NCBI RefSeq assembly: GCF_009467825.1
Contig: NZ_WIOK01000011.1
Location: forward strand, 1-64,000
Length of the DNA stretch: 64,000 bases
DNA from: Cyclobacterium xiamenense
Lineage (GTDB): Bacteria; Bacteroidota; Bacteroidia; Cytophagales; Cyclobacteriaceae
Direction of reading: 5' to 3'
Shown: in pieces, positions 10,964 through 41,399 of the stretch
Position numbering within the stretch: position 1 is the stretch's first letter
Layout of the letters: every line of letters starts with the position of its first letter
Made by a program: the position numbers and the translations under genes
Notes under the pieces: generated by a model
Databases searched by the model: none
What the model was told of the DNA's origin: nothing
The model's input: the letters and a program-made list of their open reading frames with translations, nothing else

Positions 10964-11032
10964 TTGGTGATGCCCGCGCGTATTTAATACACAAACGAAA
11001 TAACAAGAAGGAAAATAATTGGTTTACATCTT

Positions 11033-20589: not shown

Positions 20590-21183
20590 ATGTCAACTGA
20601 AAATATCAATTCGGTTCCTGAACTGGTAAGCTGTTTAAAGGAGGGGGACCGTGATGCCTTTCATCAGCTTTACGAGCTATTTGCTACCAAGATCCTTTGT
20701 ACCTGCAAAAAAATGTACCTGACCCATGAAGATGCAGAGGAGGTCGTTCAAGAAGTGTTTTTGAAGGTTTGGGAAAAAAGGCAAGGCTTGGACTGTACCC
20801 TGTCCTTTAATGCCTATCTTCTTACGATGATGCGCTCTTCCATTTTTAAACGTTCACGCAAACAAGCACTTGAAATCGCATACCAGAAATACCAGCTGAA
20901 TTATGGAGAGCGCGAAACGGGGAGTGTAGAACTGGAATTGGAGTACGAAGAGTTAAAGCATTTTTCGGAAAAAGCCATCGCGGCCTTGCCTAAGGGACAA
21001 CAGGAAGTGTTTAAATTGAAATTTACCGAGCACTTGACAGCCGATGAAATTGCCGGACGGTTGCAGCTTTCCAAACGAACCGTCGAGAATCAACTCTACA
21101 AAGCGACCAAAAGGCTAAAACAGGAGTTTTCGTCCAGTGATTTGATTCCTTCCGATCTCTTCGTCTTTTTGCTATTTTTCTAA
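20590..21183 (+). CDS. RNA polymerase ECF sigma factor (Bacteroidetes SusCD-type)
   Basis: 197-residue sigma-70 family ECF factor. Region 2 contains HEDAEEVVQEVFLKVWEK. Region 4 contains ALPKGQQEVFKLKF and the helix-turn-helix TADEIAGRLQLSKRTVEN. It precedes a FecR-type anti-sigma gene (130 bp) and a SusC transporter with an STN domain, the classic trans-envelope signalling arrangement. Substrate binding at the SusC/D complex is relayed to FecR, which frees this sigma factor. Predicted targets are the SusCD locus and the catabolic genes behind it. Confidence 0.95.
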   Translation: MSTENINSVPELVSCLKEGDRDAFHQLYELFATKILCTCKKMYLTHEDAEEVVQEVFLKVWEKRQGLDCTLSFNAYLLTMMRSSIFKRSRKQALEIAYQKYQLNYGERETGSVELELEYEELKHFSEKAIAALPKGQQEVFKLKFTEHLTADEIAGRLQLSKRTVENQLYKATKRLKQEFSSSDLIPSDLFVFLLFF

Positions 21184-25896: not shown

Positions 25897-27438
25897 ATGA
25901 AAAAGTCAACAATACTACACGTGTTTTTGGGGTTGGCGGTAGCCTTTTTCTCCGGCTCCTGCGACGAGGGCTTTGACGAAATGAATACCAATCCGGTTCG
26001 TCTTACCTCCATTGATCCCACCTTTCAATTGAATCAAGCCATAATTTCCAGTTCTCCGGGGTACAACAACCTTACCTATGAGACTACGATTGTCAGGCAG
26101 ATGATCACCCCCTTCCAGGGAGTGGGTACCGGCGGAAACCTGAATCAGGACAACCGTTCAGCCACCCAGGGCAACTGGCAAAATGGCTACCGAAACATCA
26201 TAAAAAACCTGGTAGACGGCATAGAAAACCTTCGGGATAGTCCCGAGCGCTCAAATCTACTCAGCATTATGCGTATTTGGAGAGCACATGCATTCATGAT
26301 GCTGACGGATACCTACGGGGATATTCCCTATACCGAGGCTGGTTTGGGATACATTGAAGGAAACGTATTCCCCAATTACGATTCCCAGGAATCCATCTAC
26401 ACCGACCTGTTAAACGATTTGGAAGCAGCGGTGCAAACATTGAACGAAGCCAATGACCCCATCAACCAGGAGATCATGTACAGCGGCAATATCGGACAAT
26501 GGCGAAGACTGGGCAACTCGCTGTTGCTGCGTGCCGCCATGCGCTTGGTGAAGGTAAACCCTTCTCGGGCACAGGAATTTGCCACCAAAGCAATCAACGG
26601 AGGCCTGATGCAATCCAATGAAGACAACGCCCTGGTGCGGCACAATGCCGATTACCGAAACAACGTGGGTACCAACCTAAACGGAGGCCAGGCACCTTTC
26701 TATTACCTCGATCAGGAATTTGTGAATTTTCTAAAAAGCAACAACGACCCGCGGTTGGAGTCCATTGCCGTTCGGTATGTCGGTGCCATGAGTGGGGGCG
26801 AACAAACGGAGGCAAATGCAGATCGCTCGCCAGAAGCGCAGGTAGGGATGCCCCAGGGATACGACAACACCACGATCATTCCGGTGGTGGAGGAAGCCGG
26901 GCTCGCCAGTTTGTTTGATTACAGTCAGTTAGACCGCAGGCGTCTGGGAAATCCCGAAGCGCCTAACTTTCTCGTGACCTATTCCCAAACCTTGCTACTT
27001 TGGGCAGAAGCGGTGGCGAGAGGCTGGGTGCAAGGAGATGCCGAACAGTTGTACCACGACGGGATTCGTGCCCATATGGAACAGATGGCGTATTGGCCTA
27101 ACGATACCGAAATCGCTTCGGAGGCGATCGAAGAATACATTCAGGCGCATCCCCTGGAATCCGGCAAGGAACTGGAACTGATCAACACCCAATATTGGGT
27201 ATCTTCCTTTCTGATAGGGCCCGAAACCTGGGCGAATTTTAGAAGGAGCGGGTACCCGGTGGTAAACCCAAATCCGTATCCGGGAAGCGATTTGCAATCA
27301 GAAGATTTTATCCGAAGACTGACCTATCCCGATTCGGAGCTAACAGTTAATTTTGAAAACGTGCAAGAAGCGACCAGCCGAATGGGTCCGGATATTTTGG
27401 ATACCCGGGTTTGGTGGGATGTCAATGTAGGATTTTAG
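25897..27438 (+). CDS. SusD/RagB family surface nutrient-binding lipoprotein
   Basis: 513-residue outer-membrane lipoprotein; lipobox FFSGSC with lipidated Cys22. The start of the mature protein (CDEGFDEMNTNP) is typical of the SusD-like 2 group. TPR-like helices such as IMRIWRAHAFMMLTDTYGDIPYTEA and LLLRAAMRLVKV are present. It caps the SusC barrel and captures the substrate. Length and gene order are standard for a SusCD pair. Ligand not deducible directly; context points to sugar acids. Confidence 0.95.
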   Translation: MKKSTILHVFLGLAVAFFSGSCDEGFDEMNTNPVRLTSIDPTFQLNQAIISSSPGYNNLTYETTIVRQMITPFQGVGTGGNLNQDNRSATQGNWQNGYRNIIKNLVDGIENLRDSPERSNLLSIMRIWRAHAFMMLTDTYGDIPYTEAGLGYIEGNVFPNYDSQESIYTDLLNDLEAAVQTLNEANDPINQEIMYSGNIGQWRRLGNSLLLRAAMRLVKVNPSRAQEFATKAINGGLMQSNEDNALVRHNADYRNNVGTNLNGGQAPFYYLDQEFVNFLKSNNDPRLESIAVRYVGAMSGGEQTEANADRSPEAQVGMPQGYDNTTIIPVVEEAGLASLFDYSQLDRRRLGNPEAPNFLVTYSQTLLLWAEAVARGWVQGDAEQLYHDGIRAHMEQMAYWPNDTEIASEAIEEYIQAHPLESGKELELINTQYWVSSFLIGPETWANFRRSGYPVVNPNPYPGSDLQSEDFIRRLTYPDSELTVNFENVQEATSRMGPDILDTRVWWDVNVGF

Positions 27439-27492: not shown

Positions 27493-28266
27493 ATGAAACA
27501 CCTAAAAAATCGCTTACAATCCGGAGAAACCTTAATCGGTTGCTGGTTGAATCTAGGAAGTTCGGTTACAGCCGAGATCGTAGGGCTCTCCGGATTTGAC
27601 TGGGTGCTAATTGATTTGGAGCATGGTGCAGGGGAGCCGAAAGACTTGCTGCACCAGCTTCAGGCACTCGAACATACCCGATCCACAGCCATTGTGCGGG
27701 TGGAGAGTTACCAAAAAGAACGCATTCACCGGGTATTGGACCTGGGTGCCGAGGGGGTCATGTGCCCTCGGATTTATTCCGCAGCAGAAGCCCGCCTGGC
27801 CGTCAGCGGCATGCATTACCCGCCCCTTGGAATCCGGGGGGTGGCAAAAATGGTTCGGGCAACTGGCTTTGGAAAGGATTTTGCCAGCTACAAATCCGGC
27901 ACTGCCGAAAACCTGCTGGGCATCATCCAAATAGAAACCAAAGAGGCGCTGGATGATCTCGATGAAATTGCGACAACTCCCGGTGTTGATGTGCTGTTTA
28001 TCGGACCGGCAGATCTTACCGTTGCCTTGGGAATTGACGGGGATTTAAATCATCCCCTGTTTCTGGAAGCGGTTGACCGGATTGTGAAAGCAGCCAAAAA
28101 TGCTTCGAAAGCCGTTGGAATTTTAATCTTCGATCCTGCGGATTTCGAAAAATACCAGCGACAGGGGATCCAATTGATCGCCTGCGGCTCGGATGCCACC
28201 TTTGTGGCAGCAGGTGCCCGGGAATTGCATCAATCGCTAAGCCAGTTTAAAAATAGCCCTTCATGA
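27493..28266 (+). CDS. garL: HpcH/HpaI-family class II pyruvate aldolase (2-dehydro-3-deoxyglucarate aldolase-like)
   Basis: 257-residue metal-dependent aldolase of the HpaI/GarL family. Catalytic and metal residues are placed as in E. coli GarL: His44 in DLEHG, Arg69 in IVRV, Glu148 in IQIET and Asp174 in GPADLT. It would cleave 5-keto-4-deoxy-D-glucarate to pyruvate and tartronate semialdehyde. The tartronate-semialdehyde reductase and glucarate dehydratase genes downstream support this over 4-hydroxy-2-oxoheptanedioate cleavage. Its stop overlaps the GntP start by four bases. A weak -7-like TAACTTTA at 27450 could give extra transcription after susD. Confidence 0.88.
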   Translation: MKHLKNRLQSGETLIGCWLNLGSSVTAEIVGLSGFDWVLIDLEHGAGEPKDLLHQLQALEHTRSTAIVRVESYQKERIHRVLDLGAEGVMCPRIYSAAEARLAVSGMHYPPLGIRGVAKMVRATGFGKDFASYKSGTAENLLGIIQIETKEALDDLDEIATTPGVDVLFIGPADLTVALGIDGDLNHPLFLEAVDRIVKAAKNASKAVGILIFDPADFEKYQRQGIQLIACGSDATFVAAGARELHQSLSQFKNSPS

Positions 28267-29696
28267 TTCAGGATCCCTTTTTCATTTTACTGGTAGGAAT
28301 GCTGATCGTGGTTGGGGGGATAATCGGGGGAAAATTAAATCCGTTTATCGCCCTGCTTCTGGCGGCATTGGTGGTGGCCTGGATGACACCTGCTTCGGCC
28401 ATTGTGGATTTTGCGCTAAGCAAAGGGCAGTCTCAGGCCGCTGCCGAGGCCCTTGCTCAGCGTTCCATCGGCGAACGAATAGCCGATGCCTTCGGAAGTA
28501 CCGTCGGCAAAATCGGAATATTGATTGCCATGGCCGCCATCATCGGTAAATCCATGCTGATGAGTGGAGCGGCAGAACGGATCGTACGCTCCATCCTTGG
28601 ACAGACGGGCGAGAAAAACGCACCGCTGGCTTTTTTGAGTGGCAGTTTTTTTCTGGGAATTCCGGTGTTTTTCGACACGGTGTTTTACCTGATGATCCCA
28701 CTTGCCAAAGCGATGGCCATGCGGCTCAAGGAGAGTTACCTGTTGCTGGTCCTTTGCATTACAGCGGGAGCAGCGATGGCCAATTCCCTGGTACCCCCCA
28801 CTCCTGGACCTCTTTTTCTTATCGCAGAAATGGACATTCCCATCGGCATGATGATGGTAGGCGGCTTTTTGATCGGCCTGGTTACCATCGCGGCGGGCTA
28901 CGTTTTTGCGGTTTGGGCAAACAAACGAAATCCGATTCCCTTGCGCGATTCGCTGGATGCTCCGTTGAGCGAAATCCAATCGCTCGCAGACAAACCGCAA
29001 TCCCAATTGCCTGGGCTAGGCCTGGCGGCTTCCCCTATTGCTATTCCGCTGCTGCTCATCACGGGAAGTGCATTTATCAGCACATTTTGGGGAATGGATC
29101 CCGGCCAAACTTCTCCGGTTTTTTTTGACTTGATTCATTTTCTTGGCGAAAAGAACATGGCGCTGATCCTGGGGGCGATGGCAGCCTTGCTCACGCTATT
29201 TTTGCAACGAAACAAGCAGGAAAAAGGAATGAAGGGGGCTGTACAGGCCGCTCTGACTAGCGGGGGGGTGATCATTTTGATTACAGCGGCCGGAGGCGCT
29301 TTTGGAGCCATGTTGCAGCAAACCGGAATCAGCTTGAAAATCGCCAGTCTAACGGAAGGATACCAGATGGCCCTGATACCCCTGGCTTTTTTTATCACCG
29401 CATTGGTACGAACGGCCCAGGGTTCCGCTACGGTCGCCATGATTACTGCTTCGGGCATCTTGTCTGGCATGTCGACGGCGGGGTTGGATTACCACCACCT
29501 GTACCTGGGGCTATCCATTGCCTGTGGCTCCAAACTCATTCCCTGGATGAATGATAGTGGTTTTTGGATCGTATGCAAGATGAGTAACCTGACCGAAAAG
29601 GAGGCACTCAAAACCTTTTCCCCCTTATTGACGATCATGGGCTTGGTAGGCTTACTCACGATCATGCTTGCCGCAAAAATACTCCCTTTGGTATAA
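28263..29696 (+). CDS. GntP-family gluconate/sugar-acid:H+ symporter
   Basis: 477-residue inner-membrane permease with about 12-14 helices, belonging to the GntP family (gluconate, idonate, fructuronate, glycerate uptake). Family features are the early GGIIGGKLNPFIALLLAAL helix, GSTVGKIGILIAMAAIIGK, and a NSLVPPTPGP loop near residue 175. Its start overlaps the aldolase stop (ATGA), so the pair is translationally coupled. Expected job: carrying the sugar acid delivered by SusCD across the inner membrane. Exact substrate undetermined. Confidence 0.93.
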   Translation: MIQDPFFILLVGMLIVVGGIIGGKLNPFIALLLAALVVAWMTPASAIVDFALSKGQSQAAAEALAQRSIGERIADAFGSTVGKIGILIAMAAIIGKSMLMSGAAERIVRSILGQTGEKNAPLAFLSGSFFLGIPVFFDTVFYLMIPLAKAMAMRLKESYLLLVLCITAGAAMANSLVPPTPGPLFLIAEMDIPIGMMMVGGFLIGLVTIAAGYVFAVWANKRNPIPLRDSLDAPLSEIQSLADKPQSQLPGLGLAASPIAIPLLLITGSAFISTFWGMDPGQTSPVFFDLIHFLGEKNMALILGAMAALLTLFLQRNKQEKGMKGAVQAALTSGGVIILITAAGGAFGAMLQQTGISLKIASLTEGYQMALIPLAFFITALVRTAQGSATVAMITASGILSGMSTAGLDYHHLYLGLSIACGSKLIPWMNDSGFWIVCKMSNLTEKEALKTFSPLLTIMGLVGLLTIMLAAKILPLV

Positions 29697-29723: not shown

Positions 29724-30884
29724 ATGAAAAATTTCCTGAAAAATCAGCAGCGTAGAAAATTTGTCAAGCTAGTTGCATCCGGAACAGCCGGAGCATTTGC
29801 TACCGGATCCATGGCTTTTGGGGCCCAGGCAAAACCTGATCGAAAGCCCGTCAATCCGGCGGTTCCGAAGAAAAAAGTATTGATGAAAGTAGGCTGCCAA
29901 TCCGGCGGGACAAGCGAAGAGAATCTGGCCTTTAAGGCCCGACACGGGGTGTACAACCTGGACGGAGGCATGCCCAAATTTATCGAGGGCAAGGGTTGGG
30001 ATCTGGAGGACTCCCTGAAAAAGCGGGAGGCCTGCGAAAAATACGGTATCAACCTGGATGCCTATCACTTACCCCTGACTTCTGCTGGCATTGATCGGGT
30101 GATCATTCCCCACATCATGATGGGCAAGAGTCCCGAAAGAGACCGGGAAATCGAAATGGTGCAACAGATGATCGAAGTGGCTGCGAAAACGGGGGTCAAG
30201 TTATTGAATTACAATACGACCATACTGCCCGTATTGCGAACGGGTAGAACCATTGACCCCACCCGGGGATTCGCCTCCTACAGCACCTGGAATTACCAGG
30301 AAGCCCTGCAACGGGAACAACAGTTGACCAAGGCAGGCAGGGCAGACGCGGATGAAGTTTTCGAAAGAATTACCTATCTTTTGGACAGAATTCTACCGGT
30401 AGCCGAGGAGTATAAAGTCAAATTGGGCAATCATATCGCCGATCCGCCGGTACCAGATGCCTATAACGGCATCATGCGCTGGAACAGCCCGGAGGTGTTC
30501 GAAGGCATCAAGCGATTTGCCCAATTGTACGACAGCCCGTACCACGGCTTTAATTTCTGTATCGGTTCAATAGCCGAAGGCCTTAGGGATCCTGCAAACG
30601 AAATTTTCCCCATAATCGATTGGGTAGGAAAGCGAAAACAGATCTTTAACGTGCACCTGAGAAACATAAAAGGGAATTATAATAATTTCCAGGAAGTCTA
30701 TCCGGATAACGGAGAGATGAATTTCTTTCAGGTGATGCGGGCGCTGCGGGATGTAGAATTTGATGGCATGGTCATGCCCGATCACGTGCCCCAGCACGAA
30801 GCAGAAGGAGCAGGTTTGCAGGCCTTCGCTTTTGCTTATGGACACATTATTGGGATTCTTCAGGCGCTGAAAGACGAAGCCTGA
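29724..30884 (+). CDS. Tat-exported UxuA-like (mannonate dehydratase family) TIM-barrel enzyme
   Basis: 386 residues. The N-terminus has a twin-arginine signal (QQRRKFVKLV, then a hydrophobic stretch ending AFGAQA), so it is predicted to be exported folded with its metal. The body aligns with UxuA, which dehydrates D-mannonate to 2-keto-3-deoxygluconate. The four UxuA metal-site residues have counterparts: His237 (GNHIADPP), Cys279 (FNFCIGS), His311 (VHLRN) and Asp353 (MPDH). The UxuA HPDDPP motif is altered to HIADPP and the C-terminal half is shorter, so substrate may differ. A periplasmic location is unusual, because UxuA itself is cytoplasmic. Confidence 0.85.
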   Translation: MKNFLKNQQRRKFVKLVASGTAGAFATGSMAFGAQAKPDRKPVNPAVPKKKVLMKVGCQSGGTSEENLAFKARHGVYNLDGGMPKFIEGKGWDLEDSLKKREACEKYGINLDAYHLPLTSAGIDRVIIPHIMMGKSPERDREIEMVQQMIEVAAKTGVKLLNYNTTILPVLRTGRTIDPTRGFASYSTWNYQEALQREQQLTKAGRADADEVFERITYLLDRILPVAEEYKVKLGNHIADPPVPDAYNGIMRWNSPEVFEGIKRFAQLYDSPYHGFNFCIGSIAEGLRDPANEIFPIIDWVGKRKQIFNVHLRNIKGNYNNFQEVYPDNGEMNFFQVMRALRDVEFDGMVMPDHVPQHEAEGAGLQAFAFAYGHIIGILQALKDEA

Positions 30885-30951
30885 AAGGATTCCAGATCGA
30901 TTCGTTTGCCCTTGAATAGTTAATTTTAAGATCAATAAACGAGTAATTGTT

Positions 30952-31827
30952 ATGAAGAAAGTAGGATTTATAGGGTTGGGAATCATGGGAAAACCCATGG
31001 CAATCAATTTATTGAACGCCGGGTACGAACTGCTGGTACTCGAAAGTAGTAAGGCAGCCGGAGCCCTAACAGCGAAAGGAGCAAAGGCTTATTCCACCTC
31101 TAAAGAGCTATCAGCGAATGCCGATATTGTCATCACCATGCTGCCGGATTCTCCGGAAGTATCGGAAGTGGTATTTGGCCCGGATGGAGTACTTGCAGGA
31201 ATTCGGTCGGGGACTGTGTTTGTAGACATGTCTACGATCGCACCTTCTACTGCCCGTGAGGTAGCCACAGCCATGAAAGAAAAGGGCGTGGAAGCGCTGG
31301 ACGCTCCCGTTTCCGGAGGACAGGTAGGGGCCGAGTCGGGCAATCTTTCCATCATGGTTGGGGGAACCGAACAGGCATTCGAGGTCGCAAAGCCGCTTTT
31401 TGAAGTCATGGGTAAAAGTGCCGTTTTGATAGGGGATGCAGGTGCGGGACAGCTGACAAAGGCCTGCAATCAGATGATTGTCGGAATTACCATTCAGGCG
31501 GTCGCTGAATCGTTTTCGCTGGCGAAAAAAGCCGGAGTGAATCTGGAAAAGATGCGGGAAGCCTTATTGGGTGGCTTTGCCCAAAGCCGTATCCTGGACT
31601 TGCACGGACAGCGCATCATTGATCGGAATTTTGAACCTGGTTTTAAAATCAAACTTCACCGCAAGGATATGAATATTGCCTTGATGGCGGGTAAGGAATT
31701 TAACGTACCCTTGTATGGATCCGGGCTGGTTGCCAGCCAAATGGATGCTGCCCTGGCCTTGGGATTCGATGAAAAGGATCACAGTGCCCTTGCGCTGCTT
31801 ATGGAGAAACTGAGTGGCATTGAATGA
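30952..31827 (+). CDS. garR: 2-hydroxy-3-oxopropionate (tartronate semialdehyde) reductase
   Basis: 291-residue beta-hydroxyacid dehydrogenase. The NAD(P) motif GLGIMG (residues 8-13), the substrate loop DAPVSGG (117-123) and catalytic Lys170 in GQLTKACNQ match GarR/GlxR. It reduces tartronate semialdehyde to D-glycerate in the cytoplasm. Together with the HpaI-type aldolase and the adjacent glucarate dehydratase this gives the E. coli-type D-glucarate route. A glycerate kinase to finish it is not in the window. Other 3-hydroxyisobutyrate-dehydrogenase relatives are possible, but context favours GarR. Confidence 0.9.
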   Translation: MKKVGFIGLGIMGKPMAINLLNAGYELLVLESSKAAGALTAKGAKAYSTSKELSANADIVITMLPDSPEVSEVVFGPDGVLAGIRSGTVFVDMSTIAPSTAREVATAMKEKGVEALDAPVSGGQVGAESGNLSIMVGGTEQAFEVAKPLFEVMGKSAVLIGDAGAGQLTKACNQMIVGITIQAVAESFSLAKKAGVNLEKMREALLGGFAQSRILDLHGQRIIDRNFEPGFKIKLHRKDMNIALMAGKEFNVPLYGSGLVASQMDAALALGFDEKDHSALALLMEKLSGIE

Positions 31828-31852
31828 GTTTTCGCATCGAAGAAATACAGGA

Positions 31853-33166
31853 ATGATTCACGAACAATCAGGCAGTGGTCCGCGGATTCGTGCCGTTCGG
31901 ATTACGCCCATTGCGATTCAGGACCCCCCCTTGCTCAATGCGGCCGGACTGCATGCACCCTTTGCATTACGGACGGTAGTGGAACTGGAGACCGAAGATG
32001 GGGTAATCGGCATCAGCGAGATTCCCGGAAACGAAGCCACGAATCAGGCATTGGAAGAAGCTTCCAGACTAGTAATCGGGAAGGACTTATACCAATTGAA
32101 TAAACTCCAAATGGAGTTAGAAGCCTATTTTGGTAAAGATTCGGTAACAGATAGGGGAGATGCGCCCTGGGATCAGCGAAAATTGGTCCACGTGTTTTCT
32201 GCCCTCGAAGTGGCTTGTCTGGATTGTATCGGAAAATTGGTCAATCGCCCGGTAGTAGACCTTTTGGGAGGCAGAATGAGGGATTCGGTCCCCTTTGCCG
32301 CCTACCTTTTTTTCAAATACGAAGGAGCCGGCGGGGACTGGGGATTCTCAAAAGATCCCGGCGCCCGGGGATGGGACGCTGCCCGGCAGGAGGCAGCGGT
32401 TGATCCGCAGGGCATAGTAAACCAAGCCATTGCCATGTGCAAGGAATATGGATTCCAGTCCATCAAGCTGAAAGGGGGGGCCTTTGAACCGGAGTTAGAA
32501 GTAGCCTGTATGCAAGCGCTCTATCGGGAATTTGGTCCCGCGATGCCATTGCGTTTTGACCCAAACGCCATTTGGAAGCCAGAAACCGGCTTGAAATATG
32601 GGAAAGTAATGGAGCCCATCCTGGAGTACCTGGAGGATCCGGTAAGGGGGCAGGAAAATATGGCCTGGCTCCGGGGACAAATCAAAACTCCCCTGGCAAC
32701 GAATATGTGCACGACTTCGTTTGACGAAATACCCTCGTCCATCCGTCTTGGTTCGGAAGACATTATCCTTAGTGACCACCATTTTTGGGGTGGGTTGCGC
32801 GCGTCCATGGAGCTTTCTCGGGTTTGTAATGTATTTGGCAGGGATCTATCCATGCACTCAAATAGTCATCTGGGCATTTCCCTGGCGGCCATGGTGCATT
32901 TGGGTGCGGCGCTTCCAAGGCTACGCTACGCCCTGGATACGCATTACCCCTGGCAGTCCGAAGAAATCATCACCGGTGGTCGATTTGCGTTCGATAATGG
33001 AGCGGTGCACGTCCCTTCGGGTCCCGGACTGGGTGTGGAATTGGATAGAGATTCCCTGCAAACGCTCCATCAGAATTATCTGAAATGTGGCCTTAAGAAG
33101 CGGGATGATCAAGTCGAAATGCAAAAAGTGCATCCCGATTGGACCTTTCAGAAAATCCGCTGGTAA
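31853..33166 (+). CDS. gudD: Glucarate dehydratase-like enolase-superfamily enzyme
   Basis: 437 residues from ATG 31853; a GTG at 31814 would overlap garR and is less likely. The GlucD residues are all present (numbering from ATG 31853): Lys205 and Lys207 in KLKGG, Asp236 and Asn238 in FDPN, Glu261 in YLEDP, Asn284 in ATNMC, Asp308 in LSDHHFWGG and His335 in SMHSNSH. This set is diagnostic for dehydration of D-glucarate (or idarate) to 5-keto-4-deoxyglucarate. No export signal, so it works in the cytoplasm, unlike the two enolase-superfamily neighbours downstream. Product feeds the HpaI-type aldolase. Confidence 0.93.
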   Translation: MIHEQSGSGPRIRAVRITPIAIQDPPLLNAAGLHAPFALRTVVELETEDGVIGISEIPGNEATNQALEEASRLVIGKDLYQLNKLQMELEAYFGKDSVTDRGDAPWDQRKLVHVFSALEVACLDCIGKLVNRPVVDLLGGRMRDSVPFAAYLFFKYEGAGGDWGFSKDPGARGWDAARQEAAVDPQGIVNQAIAMCKEYGFQSIKLKGGAFEPELEVACMQALYREFGPAMPLRFDPNAIWKPETGLKYGKVMEPILEYLEDPVRGQENMAWLRGQIKTPLATNMCTTSFDEIPSSIRLGSEDIILSDHHFWGGLRASMELSRVCNVFGRDLSMHSNSHLGISLAAMVHLGAALPRLRYALDTHYPWQSEEIITGGRFAFDNGAVHVPSGPGLGVELDRDSLQTLHQNYLKCGLKKRDDQVEMQKVHPDWTFQKIRW

Positions 33167-33239
33167 TGTAAAAAAAATGCAGTAGTAGGGGTAAATAGAA
33201 TCGAAGAAAATGATTTTTACAAAAAATAATCCGTTAGCC

Positions 33240-34187
33240 ATGCAGAAGTATCTTCTATTTCAGGTGATTACGCTTGCCCTCCTCGGCGGTGTAGGCCTGG
33301 AGCAGATTCAGGCCCAGCAAATCAGTAAAGAGGAACTGCTTTTTTTGACACCCGAATGGACCGGGGAGCGATTTGACGATGGGCGGCCCAGAGTACCGGA
33401 TCACGTATTGGAACGGATGAAAGAAGTTACCCACGAGGAAGCCTGGGCAGTGATGAAAAACGAGGGCTACCGGTATCAGTACGCAGAAGGATGGGAAACC
33501 ATCAATCCGGATTCGGTCCTGGTGGGCAGGGCGTTGACAGCTACGTTTATGCCGGGTAGGCCGGATATTCACGGAGCCATCGACAAGCGTGGGAAGGAAG
33601 CGGGCAAAAAAGGACAAAATGCCTGGCCCGTGGACTTGTTGGTGCCGGGAGACGTATACGTGGCCAATCAATTCGGGCTACATATCGGTGGTCCCACGAT
33701 AGGCGATAATGTAGGGAATGCGATATACACCAATTCGGGAAACGGGATCGTGTACGATGGAGCGGTTCGGGATATCAACGGGCTCAAGGAGATCGGTGGT
33801 TTTACTTCCTATTTTACCAGCTACCACCCCTCACACCACAACCAATCCGGTGACTTGAATACGATGCTTACGGGGATCAATACGCCTACCAAAATCAGAC
33901 AGGTTACGGTCATGGCGGGCGACGTGGTTTTGGGCAGAGACGGCGCCGTATCCTTTATCCCCCCTCATTTGGCGGAAAAAGTGGTCGTCACCTCTGAGAT
34001 TGTCCGGCTTCGGGACATGTTTGGGCACCAGCGAATCCGGGAGGGTGTCTACACAGCCGGACAGATCGATACCCGGTGGGCAGACGAGATCGAAAAGGAT
34101 TTTTCTCAATGGCTGACCGATCGCATGGATGATTTACCGGTGCCACGGGAGCAGATTCAGGAAATCCTGAAAAACAGAACCTGGTAG
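33240..34187 (+). CDS. Secreted RraA-fold protein, candidate metal-dependent pyruvate aldolase (copy 1)
   Basis: 315 residues from ATG 33240; an ATG at 33210 would add ten. A Sec signal peptide ends at IQAQ. The mature protein has an N-terminal helical extension with RFDDGRPRVPD, then the RraA/HMG-aldolase fold (VLVGRALTATF, PGDVYVAN). The metal/substrate signature D-X20-R-D is exact: Asp156, Arg177, Asp178. Proteins with this signature include 4-hydroxy-4-methyl-2-oxoglutarate aldolase, which splits off pyruvate and can decarboxylate oxaloacetate. Its placement with exported sugar-acid dehydratases suggests cleavage of 2-keto-3-deoxy acids outside the cytoplasm (inference). RNase E regulation is excluded by the signal peptide. 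Confidence 0.85.
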   Translation: MQKYLLFQVITLALLGGVGLEQIQAQQISKEELLFLTPEWTGERFDDGRPRVPDHVLERMKEVTHEEAWAVMKNEGYRYQYAEGWETINPDSVLVGRALTATFMPGRPDIHGAIDKRGKEAGKKGQNAWPVDLLVPGDVYVANQFGLHIGGPTIGDNVGNAIYTNSGNGIVYDGAVRDINGLKEIGGFTSYFTSYHPSHHNQSGDLNTMLTGINTPTKIRQVTVMAGDVVLGRDGAVSFIPPHLAEKVVVTSEIVRLRDMFGHQRIREGVYTAGQIDTRWADEIEKDFSQWLTDRMDDLPVPREQIQEILKNRTW

Positions 34188-34273
34188 AACCAGAACGAAT
34201 CGACGCTACCCGCCAAAAGGTTCTGGGCAGCATGCGTTCGTTCAGGTAACAAAAACCTTAACTAACCCTTTTT

Positions 34274-35551
34274 ATGAAAAAAAAAGTCAACAGAAGGTCC
34301 TTTTTATCTAAAACCGCATTGGCGGGGCTGACGGGAAGCGCCTTTTTTTCCAATTTTGGTTCAGGCCTTACAGCCGCCGTGGAAAATATGCCCCAGGCAT
34401 CCAATCCCTCCGACCTGAAAATCACGGACGTTAAGTGTGGGTACGTAAGAGGGGCACTTTATGTAAAAGTATACACCAACCAGGACGTTTGGGGCTGTGG
34501 AGAAGCGGTGGATGCCATCCATGGCACCTATCACCTGGTCAAACGCTTGGGAAACCAACTCAAGGGGGAAAATCCTTTGAACCCCAATCGGCTGGCCGAA
34601 CAACTGCGAAAGGGGGCTTTTTTCGGAGGCGCTCAATCCGGCGTATTTGTAGCCGTCTTGACGGCGATCGAAACGGCACTTTGGGACATCACCGGTAAAG
34701 TATTTGGTGTGCCGGTGTACCAGCTGTTGGGCGGAAAATTCCGAGACAAAATACGCGTTTACTGCGATACGGCCTTGTATACTGCGACCAATCCCAGCCC
34801 GGATGATTACGCCAGGGCGGCCAGAGGAGCGGTGGATCGGGGCTACACCGCCGTTAAATTCGACGTGGACGACGGAAGGGACCCCAACAAATACGATCGC
34901 TTTAACTGGACAGCCAGTCCAAAGGAGATTGACCGCATGTACGATGCCATCGCTGCAGTCCGACAAGAGGTAGGCCCCGGAATTGATGTTTGTGTGGACA
35001 TGCACGGGCGCTACGATTTCATCACCGGCGTGAAAATGGCCCGCATGTACGAAGATCTGGATTTAATGTGGCTGGAAGAACCCATTCCGGCAGATAATCC
35101 CGATTTGTACAAAAACCTCACGCAGCAAACCTCAACACCCATCTGTACTGGGGAAAATGTGTACCTGGCCTACGGGTTTGTCAATCTGCTTAGTCAGGGA
35201 GGCGTAGACATCATCATGCCGGATATCCAAAAAGCCGGTGGACTAGGAGAGGCCCAACGTATTGCCAACCTGTCAAATCTTTATTACGTGCCATTCAGCC
35301 CCCACATGGTGGCGTCATTTTTGGGGGCCATGGCTGCCTGCCACGTTTGTGCCTCGGTTCCCAACTTTCAAATCATGGAATGGCAAATCTACATGGATAC
35401 GGATCAGCTTTGGAAGGATATCGTTACCTATGATGGTCCGCGAACGGAAAATGGATTCATTACCCTTTCTGAAAAACCCGGAATCGGGGTGGAAATCAAC
35501 GAAGAGGGGATGAAAAAATACGCGGTAAAAGGAATTCCCTTTTTTGAATAA
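34274..35551 (+). CDS. Tat-exported enolase-superfamily sugar-acid dehydratase (galactonate/mannonate dehydratase-like)
   Basis: 425 residues. Tat signal NRRSFLSKTALAGLTG at the N-terminus. Enolase-superfamily residues: Lys195 and Asp197 (KFDVD), metal ligands Asp242, Glu268 (WLEEP) and Glu294 (TGEN), Asp317 (MPDIQ) and His344 (SPH). The D-M-H-G-R motif at 242-246 matches the D-x-H arrangement of D-galactonate and D-mannonate dehydratases, where this His is the acid that expels the hydroxyl. It is therefore more probably an aldonate dehydratase than a racemase. The Tat signal places it in the periplasm. Next gene, 29 bp on, is a second divergent family member. Confidence 0.88.
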   Translation: MKKKVNRRSFLSKTALAGLTGSAFFSNFGSGLTAAVENMPQASNPSDLKITDVKCGYVRGALYVKVYTNQDVWGCGEAVDAIHGTYHLVKRLGNQLKGENPLNPNRLAEQLRKGAFFGGAQSGVFVAVLTAIETALWDITGKVFGVPVYQLLGGKFRDKIRVYCDTALYTATNPSPDDYARAARGAVDRGYTAVKFDVDDGRDPNKYDRFNWTASPKEIDRMYDAIAAVRQEVGPGIDVCVDMHGRYDFITGVKMARMYEDLDLMWLEEPIPADNPDLYKNLTQQTSTPICTGENVYLAYGFVNLLSQGGVDIIMPDIQKAGGLGEAQRIANLSNLYYVPFSPHMVASFLGAMAACHVCASVPNFQIMEWQIYMDTDQLWKDIVTYDGPRTENGFITLSEKPGIGVEINEEGMKKYAVKGIPFFE

Positions 35552-35580
35552 ACCAATCACAACCAATATACCCAAAAATC

Positions 35581-37059
35581 ATGAAACCAATGGATAACCC
35601 CAAATTTAAGGACCTCTTTAAGGTTCCGGCCGCTCAGGAAAACGTATCTAAAAAGGAAACATCCGCGGAGGTACCCGACAAAATCCCCCAACGACGGGAT
35701 TTTTTGCAGAAGGCTGGTCTCGGAGGACTGGCTCTGGGTGCCTTTATGTTTCGGCCTATCGAAGAAACGCTGGCCCATACGACAGAAAAAGTAAACCGGT
35801 ATTCCAATCCATCGGAGTTGCGCATCACCGATCTGCGAATAGCGGAGGTAGCCGGGGCGCCCATGCGTTGCCCCATTATCCGCATTGATACCAACCAGGG
35901 CATTTACGGTTTGGGAGAAGTCAGGGATGGGGCCAGTGCCCGGTACGCCCTGGTCCTGAAAAGCCGTATTTTGGGAGAGAACCCCTGCCAGATTGAGCGC
36001 TTATTTAAAAAAATCAAGTTGTTTGGTAACCACGCCCGGCAGGCGGGTGGGGTATGCGCTGTAGAAATGGCGTTATGGGACCTTGCCGGGAAAGCGTATA
36101 ATGTACCCGTCTACCAGATGTTGGGCGGAAAATACCGGGATGCCATCCGGCTGTATTCGGATACTACCCAATCCAACGACCCGGAAGTTTTTGCCGACCG
36201 ACTTAAAGGAAGGGTAGACAAAGGGTACACTTTTCTAAAAATGGACTTTGGCGTACAAATGGTCCGTAACAACGATGGCTCAGTGGTAAACACAAAGGCC
36301 TTTGATAAAGGAAATGCCTGGGCTTCCGAATACGGAAGCTATGGAAGGACGGCCCATCCTTTTACCGGCATACAGCTTACAGATAAAGGAATCGAGGAAA
36401 TGGTCGCTTACGTGGCGGCAGTCCGAAACAAAGTGGGCTACGACATTCCGCTGGCAGCGGATCACTTTGGCCATTTTGATTACAAGGAATGTATCCGGTT
36501 GGGTGAAGCCCTGGAGCCCTACCGTTTGGCATGGCTGGAGGACATGGTCCCCTGGTTCTACACGGAAAAATGGAAACAAATCACCGATGCGATCAAGACG
36601 CCCACGCTTACAGGAGAGGATATTTTCTTGAAGGAAGAATTTATCAAACTAATCGATGCCCGGGCAATCGACATGATTCAACCGGACCTCGCCTCCTCTG
36701 GAGGTATCTTGGAAACAAAGAAAATCGGAGATTATGCCGAGGAGCAGGGAATTCCCATGGCCATGCATTTTGCGGGCACGCCGGTTTCCTTTATGGCAAA
36801 CATCCACTGCGCGGCCGCAACGGAAAATTTCCTGGCCCTGGAACATCATTCGGTCGACATTCCTTGGTGGGAAGACATGGTCAAGGACATTCCCAAGCCC
36901 TTGGTAATCGACGGTTTTGCAAAGGTGCCGGAAGGACCGGGTTTGGGTATCGAACTCAACGAAGAAGTGATCCGGCAGCACCTGGTGGAAGGTACCGAGT
37001 ATTTTGCGCCCACCGACGAATGGGACACCGACCGATCGAACGACCGTTGGTGGAGTTGA
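35581..37059 (+). CDS. Enolase-superfamily (mandelate racemase/dehydratase-like) enzyme with Tat-like signal
   Basis: 492 residues, longer than the usual 380-430. A polar N-terminal 35 residues precede a twin-arginine segment QRRDFLQKAGLGGLALG, so export by Tat is predicted. Superfamily residues: Lys220 and Asp222 (KMDFG), metal ligands Asp294 (AADHFG), Glu320 (WLEDM) and Glu346 (TGED), Asp369 (QPDLASSGG) and His396 (MHFAGTP). The AADH motif differs from D-x-H of the upstream paralogue, so chemistry or substrate should differ. An insert of about 35 residues (about 230-265) follows the second strand lysine. The Trp/Asp-rich tail ends RWWS. Confidence 0.85.
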   Translation: MKPMDNPKFKDLFKVPAAQENVSKKETSAEVPDKIPQRRDFLQKAGLGGLALGAFMFRPIEETLAHTTEKVNRYSNPSELRITDLRIAEVAGAPMRCPIIRIDTNQGIYGLGEVRDGASARYALVLKSRILGENPCQIERLFKKIKLFGNHARQAGGVCAVEMALWDLAGKAYNVPVYQMLGGKYRDAIRLYSDTTQSNDPEVFADRLKGRVDKGYTFLKMDFGVQMVRNNDGSVVNTKAFDKGNAWASEYGSYGRTAHPFTGIQLTDKGIEEMVAYVAAVRNKVGYDIPLAADHFGHFDYKECIRLGEALEPYRLAWLEDMVPWFYTEKWKQITDAIKTPTLTGEDIFLKEEFIKLIDARAIDMIQPDLASSGGILETKKIGDYAEEQGIPMAMHFAGTPVSFMANIHCAAATENFLALEHHSVDIPWWEDMVKDIPKPLVIDGFAKVPEGPGLGIELNEEVIRQHLVEGTEYFAPTDEWDTDRSNDRWWS

Positions 37060-37163
37060 TTTCCGCGGGGAGCATGGACCTTTCCTGTAAATAAGGTAGG
37101 AGACAGGTTGCATTATTACGTTCTTTTGCACAATTTGACATGAATTAACCATTTAATCCTAAA

Positions 37164-38099
37164 ATGATGAAGAAAATTGCATTTATTTGTTTCGTTTGGC
37201 TCCTGGTGGGAAGCATACAGGGTAATGCGCAGCAGATTTCACCCACACCCGAACAAATCAGAGCACTTACCTCTGAATGGGATGGGGAACGTTTTGCTGA
37301 CGGAAGGCCAAAAGTTTCTGACCAATTGCTTGAAAGGCTAAAATCCATTTCGATGGAGGAGGCCTGGGGGATCCTGCGAAACAAAGGCTATCATAATCAA
37401 TTTGAAAACGATTGGATTATACTCCACGAGGATCAGGTAATGACCGGCAGGGCCGTTACCGCGCAATACATGCCCTTCCGGGATGATGTAAACAATCTGG
37501 TAAAGGAAATTGGTAAGGAAGAAGGACGTGCACAATCCGGAGGCACCAACTCCTGGCCTATTGATGCACTGGTAGATGGCGACATTTATGTAGCCGATGG
37601 ATACGGCAAAATTGTCGACGGGACACTGATTGGAGACAACCTGGGGAACGCCATTTACGCCAACTCAAAGCGCGGAGTGATCTTTAATGGATCCGTTCGG
37701 GACATGGCTGGGTTGGACAAAATCGACGGATTCAACGCCTGGGTAAAGGGACACGATCCCTCCTATATCCAGGAAATGATGTTAAGTACCATCAATTATC
37801 CCATTCGTCTCGGCAGGGCAACGGTGTTACCGGGGGATGCCGTCCTTGCGAATAAATGGGGAGTGATTTTTATTCCAGCACATTTGGTAGCCGACCTGGT
37901 TATCAATGCGGAATTCACGGCCTTAAGGGATCAATTTGGACACCTCAGATTGCGGGAACAAAAATACACTGCTGGAGAAATCGATAGCCGATGGAGCGAG
38001 ACCATTAAGGAAGATTTTCTGAATTGGCTGAAAAACAAGCAGGACCTTCCCATGAGTCGGGAGGAACTGGACGCCTACCTGAAGGACAGAAACTGGTAA
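37164..38099 (+). CDS. Secreted RraA-fold protein, candidate metal-dependent pyruvate aldolase (copy 2)
   Basis: 311 residues; the start could also be the ATG at 37167. Sec signal peptide ending GNAQ. Same architecture as the RraA-fold protein at 33.2-34.2 kb: RFADGRPKVSD extension, VMTGRAVTAQY, GDIYVADG and an exact D-X20-R-D signature (Asp158, Arg179, Asp180). The C-terminus shares the DRNW/NRTW ending with copy 1. The two copies flank the two Tat-exported enolase-superfamily genes symmetrically, which argues for paired dehydratase-aldolase functions. A terminator follows at 38221-38252, ending the unit that begins with the ECF gene. Confidence 0.85.
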   Translation: MMKKIAFICFVWLLVGSIQGNAQQISPTPEQIRALTSEWDGERFADGRPKVSDQLLERLKSISMEEAWGILRNKGYHNQFENDWIILHEDQVMTGRAVTAQYMPFRDDVNNLVKEIGKEEGRAQSGGTNSWPIDALVDGDIYVADGYGKIVDGTLIGDNLGNAIYANSKRGVIFNGSVRDMAGLDKIDGFNAWVKGHDPSYIQEMMLSTINYPIRLGRATVLPGDAVLANKWGVIFIPAHLVADLVINAEFTALRDQFGHLRLREQKYTAGEIDSRWSETIKEDFLNWLKNKQDLPMSREELDAYLKDRNW

Positions 38100-38314: not shown

Positions 38315-39472
38315 ATGAGCAACAAATTCATTCTTCTTCGTCTGGCCCTGGCGTTTACTATCTTTTTTTTCGTATTCCCGACCCCTTCCTCCGGCAACAC
38401 TGGTTTCGCGGAGAAACCATCCGAACTGGATAGACCCAAGAAATACCTATATGTTGCCGTCCCCGGAATTCGGAATTACCTGGGTTATGGCGGCCATGGG
38501 GTGCTGGTCTTTGACATTGAGTCAGGACATCGCTTTGTTAAGAGGATTCCTATGCGGGGGTACGCTGCGAATGGCAAACCCTCCAATGTGAAAGGAATTG
38601 CTGTTAGTATTCCCCTAAATAGTCTTTTTATAAGTACCTTGGAAGGAGTGCAACGCTTGGACCTGAAAACGGAGACACTTGTTTGGGAACGGGCGTACGA
38701 AGGAGGGGCTGACCGCATGTCCATATCTCCGGACGGAATGACCATGTATTTGCCTTCCCTGGAAAAGGATTTCTGGAATGTAATTAACTGCGAAACGGGC
38801 GATCGAATTGCCACCATTCCCGTGCACGAACGGGCCCACAATACCATTTACGGCCCATCGGGTTTCTACGCCTACCTGGCCGATATCAATTCGCCTTACC
38901 TCCATGTAGCCGATACCCGCTTGCATGAAGTGACCCGTAAAATCGGTCCTTTTTCTCATGGGATTCGTCCTTTTACCATCAACAGCGAGGAATCGCTGGT
39001 ATTTGTAAATGTAAACGAACGGCTTGGATTCGAAGTGGGAGATTTGCAGACCGGTGAAGTGCTTGCAAAAATCCAGGTGGAGGGCTGGGATAAGGGGCCC
39101 GTACGCCGCCACGGAAACCCCTCCCATGGAATTGGCCTAACGCCAGATGAATCAGAGATTTGGATCTGCGACGGGCACAACATGCGGCTGCATTTGTTTC
39201 AGGCTTTTCCTCCCTACCAGCAATTGACGACCATTCCGCTTCAGGACATGCCTGGTTGGATTACCTTCAGCTTGGATGGCCGCTTCGCCTATCCTTCCAG
39301 CGGGGAAGTCATTGATGTGGAGACACGAAAAGTCCTTCATTTGCTTCAGGACGAGCACCATAATTACGTGGCAAGTGAAAAGATGATCGAGTTGCATCTG
39401 CTTAATGGCGAGGTACAGGCGGCAGGGGACCAATTTGGACTCGGAAGAAAACTAACCATCAGTCAAGAATAA
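38315..39472 (+). CDS. Secreted YncE-like beta-propeller protein
   Basis: 385 residues. An N-terminal hydrophobic signal (LALAFTIFFFVFPTPSS) is followed by repeats typical of a seven-bladed propeller (YVAVPG, LFISTLEGVQRLD, MSISPDGMTMYLP, FTINSEESLVFVN, GLTPDESEIWICDG, FSLDGRFAYPSSG). Such YVTN/YncE proteins bind small ligands or act as scaffolds; a catalytic site cannot be recognised. First gene after the 38.2-kb terminator, 40 bp before the malate-synthase-like gene, and probably co-transcribed with it. Location periplasmic or extracellular. Confidence 0.75.
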   Translation: MSNKFILLRLALAFTIFFFVFPTPSSGNTGFAEKPSELDRPKKYLYVAVPGIRNYLGYGGHGVLVFDIESGHRFVKRIPMRGYAANGKPSNVKGIAVSIPLNSLFISTLEGVQRLDLKTETLVWERAYEGGADRMSISPDGMTMYLPSLEKDFWNVINCETGDRIATIPVHERAHNTIYGPSGFYAYLADINSPYLHVADTRLHEVTRKIGPFSHGIRPFTINSEESLVFVNVNERLGFEVGDLQTGEVLAKIQVEGWDKGPVRRHGNPSHGIGLTPDESEIWICDGHNMRLHLFQAFPPYQQLTTIPLQDMPGWITFSLDGRFAYPSSGEVIDVETRKVLHLLQDEHHNYVASEKMIELHLLNGEVQAAGDQFGLGRKLTISQE

Positions 39473-39512: not shown

Positions 39513-41399
39513 ATGAGCAAAGAAGAAATTATCATTCGGGATCAACTGAAGGAAACGTATGCAGATGTCTACACGAACGAGGTACTGGAAGCGCTGGGAG
39601 GCCTGGCTCCGTTTAACCAGGAGGTAAAAAAACTGATGGAAATTCGGTTGAGAAGGCGCAAAGAGCGTGCACAAAATGGAAAACGCATCGATTTCTTAAA
39701 CCCCGAGACCAATATTCCCGGAAGCAACATCAAGGTACAAGATGCCAGAGCGGGTAATTTTGAGGGTGCAGTCATACCCGGTGATTTGCAGCGGCAGTGG
39801 ATACAAGGAACAGGTCCGGGTGCCAAACCCAACGCTTCCTTGGAAAGTAGCATCCGAAACGTGGCCTATGCGTTGCTTTCGGGTGCCGATGGGTGGATGT
39901 TTGATGGAGAAGATGCCCTGGGCCAGGTAACGACCATGTCTCTGGACAATCAGCGGAACCTCAAACTGGCCATCCATGGTTCTCCGGTATTTCTTTCGGT
40001 GGCGGAACGGGTCGCCGGGCAAATGAATGCATGGAGCAAAGCGTTTTTTGGCGAGGAAAAAATTACGGATTGGCGATCCCAATTGGGTTTTACTACCAAA
40101 ATTTTCCGGGCAAGGGGGCTGCATTTGGATGATAGACACATTGAATTGGCAGGCGGGAATTCGTTTTCGGCGGCTATAGCTGACCTCACCTTGTACGTCA
40201 CCAACAACTACCGGGCACTAATGGATGCCGGGTCATCGGTGGTCCTGTATTTACCAAAGATCCAAACCGCTGAAGAGGCGGGATTGTGGAACCGCCTGAT
40301 CACCGCACTGGAGGAACACCTGGGATTGCCGATTGGTACGGTGAAAGTATACGTCTTGGTGGAACAATTGGAGGCTACGTTCCAGTTGATGGAAATTCGG
40401 GCGGTTTTGGGAAAGCACTTTGTGGGATACAACACCGGCCGCTGGGATTATATCAATAGCGTATCGGATGCCCTATCCTGGGATCAGGAGTTTATCAATC
40501 CCAATATAGAATCCATAGGCATGACCTATGGGTACATGCGAAATTACGAAGATAGGGTACGGAGGGCTGTAAATACGCCCGATAGGCAAGGAAACTACGC
40601 CTTATGGCAGGGAGGAATGGAACCGAATATCCCGGTTGGATCTGAAGCGGGGGTTCAGTCCAGCATGGAAAAGGCACTGGCCGGAGCAGGAAGAGAACAG
40701 CGGGAAGGAGCCAGCGGAAAATGGGTGGCTCATTGGAAAATGGTGCACATCGTACGCCCCGTTTGGGAGCGTGTCGGCGAACCAAACCAAATGGGAAGGA
40801 AATTCCCACCGCTGGGCTATTCGCCCGAAGATGCGGCCGGATTGGTATTGCTGGAGGAGGCGCCACGGACCATACGGGGAGCAAGGAATCTGCTCAGTGT
40901 GGGCTTGCAATATGGGAATGCATTTGGTCAGGGGATGCAGGCGGCAGCGCTAAAGCCGGCGGATTTTTTCGGAAATGACGACGTTCTCTACCTGATGGAA
41001 GACATGGCAACGGGCGAAATTAGGCTGAGCATTCTTTGGGAGTGGTTACATAAAAAAGCAGTCATCACGGAAAATGATCCGGAGTCTGGCGTCAAGGCAG
41101 GCGATGTATTTACCCTGGAATTATTTGAACGATTACTTCGAGAAGAGTACGATAAATTGCTGAATGCCAGTGATAAAGATGTACACGATTCGTCCAAAAC
41201 CACCACCTTGCCCATTGCAAGACGAATCGTGGAAGTATATGTAAAAGAGTCTACCAAAATACCCTGGTTCATTGACTTATTAAATATTAACCTGAACAAC
41301 TATAGCCAAAAAGAAGCGGAGAAGCGGATCAAGCTGTATGTGAAGCACCTGAAAGAAACAGGTCAGCGGATTACAGCAAATCTGGATTTTTCGGCTTGA
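39513..41399 (+). CDS. Divergent malate synthase (A-type) homologue
   Basis: 628 residues, about 95 longer than E. coli AceB. Malate-synthase landmarks are conserved: the catalytic arginine region RARGLHL (Arg201; AceB has PRGWHL), metal-site Glu284 in LVEQLEATFQ, Asp312 in TGRWDYI, GGM at 367-369, KWVAH at 403-407 and the catalytic-base region LMEDMATGEI (Asp497). It should condense acetyl-CoA with glyoxylate or another 2-oxo acid. Extra length lies at the N-terminus and between GGM and the C-terminal helices. The following gene is an LldP/GlcA-type permease, recalling E. coli glcB-glcA. No isocitrate lyase is nearby, so a role in glycolate/glyoxylate use is more likely than the glyoxylate cycle. 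Confidence 0.85.
   Translation: MSKEEIIIRDQLKETYADVYTNEVLEALGGLAPFNQEVKKLMEIRLRRRKERAQNGKRIDFLNPETNIPGSNIKVQDARAGNFEGAVIPGDLQRQWIQGTGPGAKPNASLESSIRNVAYALLSGADGWMFDGEDALGQVTTMSLDNQRNLKLAIHGSPVFLSVAERVAGQMNAWSKAFFGEEKITDWRSQLGFTTKIFRARGLHLDDRHIELAGGNSFSAAIADLTLYVTNNYRALMDAGSSVVLYLPKIQTAEEAGLWNRLITALEEHLGLPIGTVKVYVLVEQLEATFQLMEIRAVLGKHFVGYNTGRWDYINSVSDALSWDQEFINPNIESIGMTYGYMRNYEDRVRRAVNTPDRQGNYALWQGGMEPNIPVGSEAGVQSSMEKALAGAGREQREGASGKWVAHWKMVHIVRPVWERVGEPNQMGRKFPPLGYSPEDAAGLVLLEEAPRTIRGARNLLSVGLQYGNAFGQGMQAAALKPADFFGNDDVLYLMEDMATGEIRLSILWEWLHKKAVITENDPESGVKAGDVFTLELFERLLREEYDKLLNASDKDVHDSSKTTTLPIARRIVEVYVKESTKIPWFIDLLNINLNNYSQKEAEKRIKLYVKHLKETGQRITANLDFSA

Follow-up and report, generated by a model that had tools for sequence, protein, structure and literature searches.

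The sugar-acid dehydratases and pyruvate aldolases of the families considered here normally work in the cytoplasm. In the glucarate/galactarate pathway (GudD/GarD, GarL and GarR), which is likewise cytoplasmic, the substrate is dehydrated to a 2-keto-3-deoxy acid, and class II aldol cleavage of this intermediate yields pyruvate and tartronate semialdehyde. In this study, a locus for which the same reaction logic is proposed was analysed in a stretch of 64,000 nucleotides from Cyclobacterium xiamenense (contig NZ_WIOK01000011.1, positions 1 to 64,000; hereafter the window), in which a UxuA-like TIM-barrel protein, two MR/MLE enolase-superfamily proteins (EnoA and EnoB) and two RraA-fold proteins (RraA1 and RraA2) carry predicted export signals. 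GarR, GudD-like and HpaI-like genes are also present in this locus; however, the aldolase is of the HpaI type in the glucarate/galactarate pathway and the putative exported aldolase here is of the RraA type, and the genes of that pathway lie outside the conserved exported core. This core consists of an exported RraA and an exported enolase (or a DgaE-like protein in its place), often accompanied by SusC/SusD and a symporter of the sodium bile acid symporter family (BASS/SBF). On balance, we regard it as probable that the core constitutes a periplasmic module, in which a 2-keto-3-deoxy acid would be formed and split by an RraA-type aldolase before the resulting fragments are imported.

Other described systems share individual features with this locus. 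EnoA and EnoB have the fold and the metal-ligand and dyad positions of the MR/MLE acid-sugar dehydratases (3tw9, ManD and 2qq6), but they bear signals for twin-arginine (Tat) export and EnoB is without the D-x-H base. As in SusC/SusD polysaccharide utilisation loci, SusC/SusD adjoin enzymes with a predicted periplasmic location, which are here dehydratase- and aldolase-like rather than recognised glycosidases; no glycosidase or lyase domain was found among the 11 open reading frames (ORFs) of the locus that were scanned (ten with Pfam and LctP with NCBIfam; SusC, SusD, GntP and two regulators were outside the scan). That a SusC/SusD-type pair can serve a small acidic sugar is illustrated by sialic acid uptake through NanO/NanU (PMC3969230). 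The exported RraA proteins resemble the HMG/CHA aldolase/RraA family (3noj, 5x15; PMC5065237) in fold and in an Arg-Asp pair, but have a signal peptide, are approximately 90 residues longer than a cytoplasmic RraA paralogue encoded by this genome, and are linked to enolases and a BASS symporter rather than to aromatic ring cleavage or RNase E. The 3-keto-glycoside route (LacABC and DUF1080), as set out in the available portion of PMC9007349, is also a proposal of non-hydrolytic sugar chemistry in the periplasm, and also in Bacteroidota; it differs in relying on C3 oxidation and hydrolysis, with no dehydratase, aldolase or extracytoplasmic C-C cleavage described in that portion. The titles and abstract openings of the literature found do not name an exported RraA-enolase module, although this is weak evidence of absence as subscription papers were mostly outside coverage, and the accessible sections of PMC8857213 and PMC5507952 make no mention of exported dehydratases.

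Export signals were called by a purpose-written script, the Sec rule of which is crude, and by eye. The UxuA-like protein (29724..30884; PF03786, 126.7 bits) starts with MKNFLKNQQRRKFVK and displays the Tat motif QRRKFVK with RR at residues 10-11, EnoA (34274..35551; PF13378, 208 bits; nearest PDB entry 2qq6, E 2.2e-97) displays NRRSFLS with NRRSF at residues 6-10, and EnoB (35581..37059; PF13378, 171.6 bits) displays QRRDFLQ with RR at residues 38-39, preceded by a long n-region. EnoB passes the NCBIfam model TAT_signal_seq (TIGR01409; 17.8 bits versus a cut-off of 16.7), and EnoA and the UxuA-like protein score below that cut-off. RraA1 (33210..34187; PF03737, 50.1 bits) and RraA2 (37164..38099; PF03737, 59.4 bits) possess Sec-type signals ending in IQA and GNA, respectively, each followed by QQ (cleavage sites judged by eye). 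The same genome encodes TatC as well as a 219-residue RraA paralogue that has no signal. HpaI, GudD and malate synthase were found to be signal-free by the script; GarR triggers the crude Sec rule, as in all three named loci that contain it, and this call was judged a false positive because the protein has a Rossmann-type start. The preliminary description of this DNA had assigned Tat signals to the UxuA-like protein, EnoA and EnoB and Sec signals to RraA1 and RraA2 at these same positions, and had taken HpaI, GarR and GudD to be signal-free; both assignments were borne out, that of GarR by judgement. Judged from their sequences, the five N-termini are well supported as export signals.

Conservation of the signals was assessed in 80 named loci, which represent the best of 579 EnoB relatives and are a biased sample with some members on short contigs; relatives were accepted at 38% identity or more over more than 150 aligned residues and a length of at least 200 residues, with alternative starts allowed. 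The script called a Tat signal in 86 of 87 EnoB relatives, and in the exception (L087, a Verrucomicrobia metagenome-assembled genome) NRRSFLRTAG was recognised by eye in frame just 5' of the called start. Tat signals were likewise called in all EnoA (15/15) and UxuA-like (3/3) relatives, while signals were called in all 15 RraA1 relatives and in 68 of 71 RraA2 relatives, the three remaining RraA2 proteins showing a signal by eye. When the set was widened to 107 RraA relatives, 102 passed the script and four more were recognised by eye, and one (L208_7) has an unclear start and was assigned no signal. No variation was seen at R38, R39 and F41 of EnoB in two alignments, one with 19 and the other with 28 sequences, the latter sharing 56-90% identity with the EnoB of the window, even as their n-regions differ in length and letters. 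Sec- and Tat-type signals moreover accompany one another within loci. As a background, 552 unlabelled ORFs of at least 200 amino acids from the 80 loci gave 25 Tat and 155 Sec calls from called starts, and 36 and 213, respectively, once other starts were permitted. No signal was called in any of the 71 members of nine control families (HpaI, GudD, malate synthase, FGGY kinase, ECF, FecR, AraC, an HD-type cluster and a response-regulator-type cluster). The frequency of signals in EnoB, EnoA and RraA relatives is above chance. AGE-type proteins scored 2/6 and may be partly exported.

Counts of gene presence per locus were obtained by tblastn with each stretch given to its best query, since GudD cross-matches EnoB; some genes, such as EnoB in L036 and L121, escaped the rule-based gene calling or were cut wrongly by it. 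Where EnoB has 5 kb or more of sequence to either side (56 named loci, termed well-flanked), an RraA gene is found no further than 1.5 kb away in 52 loci and no further than 5 kb away in 53, and RraA is present in 67 of all 80. Judging by record titles, the 80 loci include representatives of Cyclobacteriaceae, Spirosoma, Dyadobacter and other Cytophagales, Chitinophagaceae, Saprospiraceae, Mucilaginibacter, Tannerellaceae and Prolixibacteraceae, and metagenome-assembled genomes of Verrucomicrobia, Omnitrophota, Phycisphaerae and Acidobacteria. In a phylum panel of 395 genomes, RraA2 (E <= 1e-30) was detected in 24 and EnoB (E <= 1e-120) in 15, all of the latter among the 24 (hypergeometric 2.5e-21, uncorrected for kinship), and the two genes are no more than 5 kb apart in 14 of the 15 genomes and on separate contigs in the other (G570). 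The linkage of exported RraA with exported enolase, for which the preliminary description had proposed a neighbourhood search and on which it had made its reading depend, is kept in other genomes; it is real and well supported, though not universal. The complete set of RraA1, EnoA, EnoB and RraA2 occurs in 14 of the 80 named loci (three of them Cyclobacterium) and in four of 31 order-level regions, EnoB was found in 30 of 194 genomes of the order (E <= 1e-60), and many genomes lack all or part of the core. The genome of the window also encodes a paralogue of EnoB (C62, L054) with its own Tat motif but no recognised partner. As a separate observation, Adhaeribacter aquaticus (L123) carries seven EnoB-like genes, six of them in tandem and one following three RraA2-like genes; six of the seven have a Tat signal by script.

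In L047, L051, L052, L053 and L062, the core has a neighbour that was assigned to PF01758, the Pfam family of sodium bile acid symporters. Relatives of one of these BASS proteins were detected by tblastn in 14 of the 20 panel loci anchored on RraA (gene calling gave 13), in 28 of the 80 named loci and in seven of the 31 order-level regions. The cargo of BASS proteins in plants comprises pyruvate, glycolate and 2-keto acids (PMC10645422). Fragments of this type are what periplasmic aldol cleavage would release. The preliminary description had put forward GntP or an LldP-type permease as importer, a point that is revised here: the recurrent inner-membrane partner is the BASS/SBF symporter, and orthologues of the GntP-family permease (28263..29696; named from sequence) and of the LctP-type lactate/glycolate permease (41418..43127; TIGR00795, 364 bits, above the cut-off of 341) were found, among the 80 named loci, in Cyclobacterium alone, the former (83-90%) in just the three named Cyclobacterium loci and the latter (81%) in C. 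salsum. The SusC-type TonB-dependent outer-membrane transporter (22384..25845) and the SusD-type surface lipoprotein (25897..27438), both named from sequence, belong to the system. Core-linked SusC proteins are mostly 43-59% identical to that of the window, and other SusC proteins in the same flanks 22-34%; exceptions are two Tannerellaceae loci (L132 and L133, 31-32%) and L206 (39%). A SusD gene is found no more than 5 kb from EnoB in 23 of the 56 well-flanked loci.

In the proposed scheme, SusC/SusD would carry an acidic derivative of a sugar through the outer membrane, and the Tat-exported, metal-dependent EnoA and EnoB, here together with the UxuA-like protein, would dehydrate it in the periplasm to a 2-keto-3-deoxy acid. 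The Sec-exported RraA1 and RraA2 would then act as class II aldolases and split this acid into pyruvate and a small aldehyde or oxo acid, upon which the BASS symporter, or in this Cyclobacterium-like genome GntP and LctP, would import the fragments for completion by cytoplasmic enzymes, in this case GarR and malate synthase, that depend on NAD(P)H, acetyl-CoA or ATP. The order of steps, the substrate class, the activities and the imported cargo are those that we infer. Periplasmic dehydration and aldol cleavage had already been suggested in the preliminary description, and this part is favoured by the signals, the conserved linkage and the carboxylate-type transporter that is often alongside, while the GntP/LldP importers have given way to BASS and the UxuA-like protein is an occasional member. 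The split-compartment idea is in this way strengthened and its core redefined, with a periplasmic location, enzymatic activity and aldonate/aldarate substrates as presumptive features.

Structural comparison is consistent with the proposed aldolase role. The RraA2 model (pLDDT 88.7) matched 3k4i, 5x15 and the HMG/CHA aldolase 3noj with a Foldseek probability of 1.00. R179 and D180 are kept in 109 of 109 RraA sequences and the upstream Asp158 in 92 (motif G-D-x20-R-D); both RraA proteins of the window have D-x20-R-D, from residue 166 in RraA1, and in RraA2 D158 and R179-D180 align with D102 and R123-D124 of 3noj. In PMC5065237, Arg-123 of the HMG/CHA aldolase is essential, and most homologues carry one of two motifs and are, according to its authors, likely class II pyruvate aldolases. 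RraA1 and RraA2 fall below all NCBIfam cut-offs. A role for the RraA proteins as RNase E regulators was rejected on account of the signal peptide and of linkage to enolases and not to RNA genes.

The EnoB model (pLDDT 81.6, with the signal region under 50) has 2qq6_A as its best fold match (TMt 0.86). D294, E320, E346, D369, H396 and E421 are invariant in the 28 sequences, and we take them, from the 2qq6 alignment, to be the three metal ligands, the His-Asp dyad and the terminal Glu. GalD/ManD-type acid-sugar dehydratases use a D-x-H base. EnoA retains the D-x-H of 2qq6 (as DMH); EnoB was not filed as GalD/ManD type because it lacks this base, and it may not be a simple dehydratase; its stereochemistry or reaction may differ. 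The most credible alternative concerns the chemistry, although we consider it unlikely: the exported enzymes would be periplasmic but act on compounds other than ordinary aldonates and aldarates, for instance as epimerases or cycloisomerases of unusual acidic sugars, and RraA would be a decarboxylase or lyase for another oxo acid. Besides the missing base of EnoB, which contrasts with its six invariant residues, this alternative draws on the presence of cycloisomerases (5olc and 4hpn) next to the gluconate dehydratase 3tw9 among the fold neighbours of EnoB, on AGE-type genes that adjoin some copies, and on the fact that no exported enzyme reaches the cut-off of any NCBIfam enzyme model. What speaks against it is a group of loci in which the enolase is swapped for an ammonia-lyase relative and RraA is kept, an exchange that is best fitted by a 2-keto-3-deoxy acid.

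DgaE enzymes convert amino-sugar acids to 2-keto-3-deoxy acids. In four of the 20 RraA-anchored panel loci (L201-L204), relatives of DgaE (D-glucosaminate-6-phosphate ammonia lyase, TIGR01437) replace EnoA/EnoB, with RraA and the symporter kept; these pyridoxal phosphate (PLP) proteins retain the SGGK lysine in all four, but differ from DgaE in being Tat-signalled and score far under its cut-off (167 and 163 versus 385). All four loci encode an amidohydrolase, with at least one Sec-signalled copy in each, and three encode a relative of SMP-30-type lactonases, with a called signal in two. As a dehydratase and an ammonia-lyase relative alternate upstream of the same RraA, the exchange suggests a 2-keto-3-deoxy acid as the common intermediate of both heads. 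At E <= 1e-60 the DgaE variant was found in three of 295 genomes of the class. The five regions around DgaE matches contain a symporter in two cases (L219 and L223) and none in L220, L221 and L222; RraA occurs in L223, and because this region overlaps L201, it is L201-L204 that provide the DgaE-RraA link. The window's genome has three DgaE-like copies, and one of its regions (L219; G000:C8:44000-63900) combines a Tat-signalled DgaE-like PLP protein with exported amidohydrolases, an SMP-30-type lactonase and two BASS proteins, and is without RraA.

A second, improbable alternative is that of split roles within one operon, whereby the exported enzymes trim or detoxify and catabolism proceeds through cytoplasmic GudD, HpaI and GarR fed by GntP. 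Gene spacing suggests a single operon, and it does include a GudD-like enolase-superfamily dehydratase (31814..33166; nearest PDB entry 3vdg, a probable glucarate dehydratase, E 1.4e-125), an HpaI/GarL-type class II aldolase (27493..28266; PF03328, 143.9 bits) and a cytoplasmic GarR-type tartronate semialdehyde reductase (30952..31827), all signal-free (GarR by judgement). GarR exceeds its equivalog cut-off (TIGR01505; 346.5 bits versus 340.75), which GudD (TIGR03247; 318 versus 829), GarL (210 versus 407) and the NCBIfam HpaI model (215 versus 368.8) do not. Orthologues of HpaI, GarR and GudD, however, occur in three of the 80 named loci, all Cyclobacterium, and the exported core persists without them; on this count the three genes were ruled out as parts of the core. 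The UxuA-like protein was found in six of the 80, three times at 26-28% identity, and lies below the NCBIfam cut-offs for mannonate dehydratase (61.7 versus 199.6 for TIGR00695; 93.2 versus 191 for NF003027). Partners that need NAD(P)H, acetyl-CoA or ATP (GarR by judgement, malate synthase and FGGY kinase) are signal-free, and the exported enzymes presumably require at most a metal or PLP. Finally, that the N-terminal stretches are non-functional and the proteins cytoplasmic, as the wrong Sec call on GarR might encourage one to think, is highly improbable in view of the RR pair kept throughout the 28 EnoB proteins down to 56% identity, the co-occurrence of Sec- and Tat-type signals, the silent control families, the presence of TatC and the lack of an N-terminal extension in the cytoplasmic RraA paralogue.

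Returning to the periplasmic module, a number of observations weigh against it. The signals rest on our own script and on inspection by eye, and the Sec background rises with alternative starts. RraA was not found in 13 of the 80 named loci (several on short contigs) and is present in just 16 of the 31 order-level regions, the 15 others comprising four contigs under 8 kb and 11 regions of at least 16 kb, some of these 11 being second copies in their genome. Within 5 kb of EnoB, the symporter occurs in just 15, and SusC in just 24, of the 56 well-flanked loci. With regard to catalysis, EnoB lacks the His of the D-x-H motif (D294-H295-x-G297-H298), and Asp158 is replaced by Ser, Ala or Asn in 17 of 109 RraA proteins that retain Arg-Asp (in L101, L103, L106, L108, L109, L123, L125, L196, L197 and L205, several of which have two such copies adjacent). 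Fragments freed in the periplasm might also be lost by leakage. Of the three named Cyclobacterium, just one has malate synthase and LctP next to the core, which makes their tie to it weak; the role in the core of LctP, the malate synthase-like protein (39513..41399; PF01274, 154.3 bits; no signal) and the Sec-signalled YVTN beta-propeller-like protein (38315..39472; no Pfam match, weak NCBIfam YVTN repeat) is doubtful. Among the 80 named loci, the YVTN gene was found in C. salsum alone (78%), and malate synthase in C. salsum (86%) and otherwise just at one edge of L090 (73%); C. salsum also has the closest named EnoB relative (90%).

More tentatively, and with the odds slightly against such a generalisation, the core may represent a widespread non-phosphorylative periplasmic route in which interchangeable heads, namely enolase dehydratases for sugar acids and DgaE-like ammonia lyases for amino-sugar acids, are combined with RraA and BASS, and in which C-C cleavage takes place without a nucleotide cofactor. 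If the periplasmic reading is true, sugar-acid dehydration and aldol cleavage would occur outside the cytoplasm in many environmental bacteria, oxidised sugars would be split before ATP or NAD(P)H is spent, and a role would be found for many proteins annotated merely as RraA family or mandelate racemase. It would also account for some SusC/SusD loci without glycosidases, and compartment-blind pathway predictors would misplace the route; GapMind, by its own statement in PMC9007349, leaves the compartment out of consideration.

The locus as a whole (20590-43127) extends past the positions given in the preliminary description (29724-38099), with SusC/SusD upstream and the YVTN protein, malate synthase and LctP downstream. 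All of its genes are on the forward strand, and from FecR onward neighbouring genes are separated by -14 to 215 bases. It begins with a FecI-like ECF sigma factor (20590..21183), the probable regulator of the SusC/SusD pair, and a FecR-type anti-sigma factor (21313..22338), both named from sequence; relatives of the latter form cluster c0 upstream of SusC, and the order ECF, FecR, SusC and SusD is repeated in relatives (cluster c1 in 13 loci and c0 in 17). An FGGY kinase and an AraC-type regulator were observed near the SusC/SusD core in L074, L081, L090, L096, L111 and L206; the L074 and L090 copies of the kinase were scanned, and it is closest to gluconokinase (L090 copy, 429 bits versus a cut-off of 649), these neighbours hinting at gluconate-type substrates. 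Sialic-acid-type substrates were also considered as a candidate, given the AGE-type genes near some copies. Elsewhere in the window, a Sec-signalled AGE-type epimerase-like protein was recognised by eye at 6022-7401, and AGE-type genes adjoin EnoB/RraA in other genomes. Also by eye, positions 7499-14461 encode two tandem, similar proteins of approximately 1150 amino acids that appear to combine a dehydrogenase-type propeller with HEAT repeats and cytochrome c in one fused chain, and positions 47604-48872 a D-amino-acid-oxidase-like protein with the Tat motif HRRDFIR.

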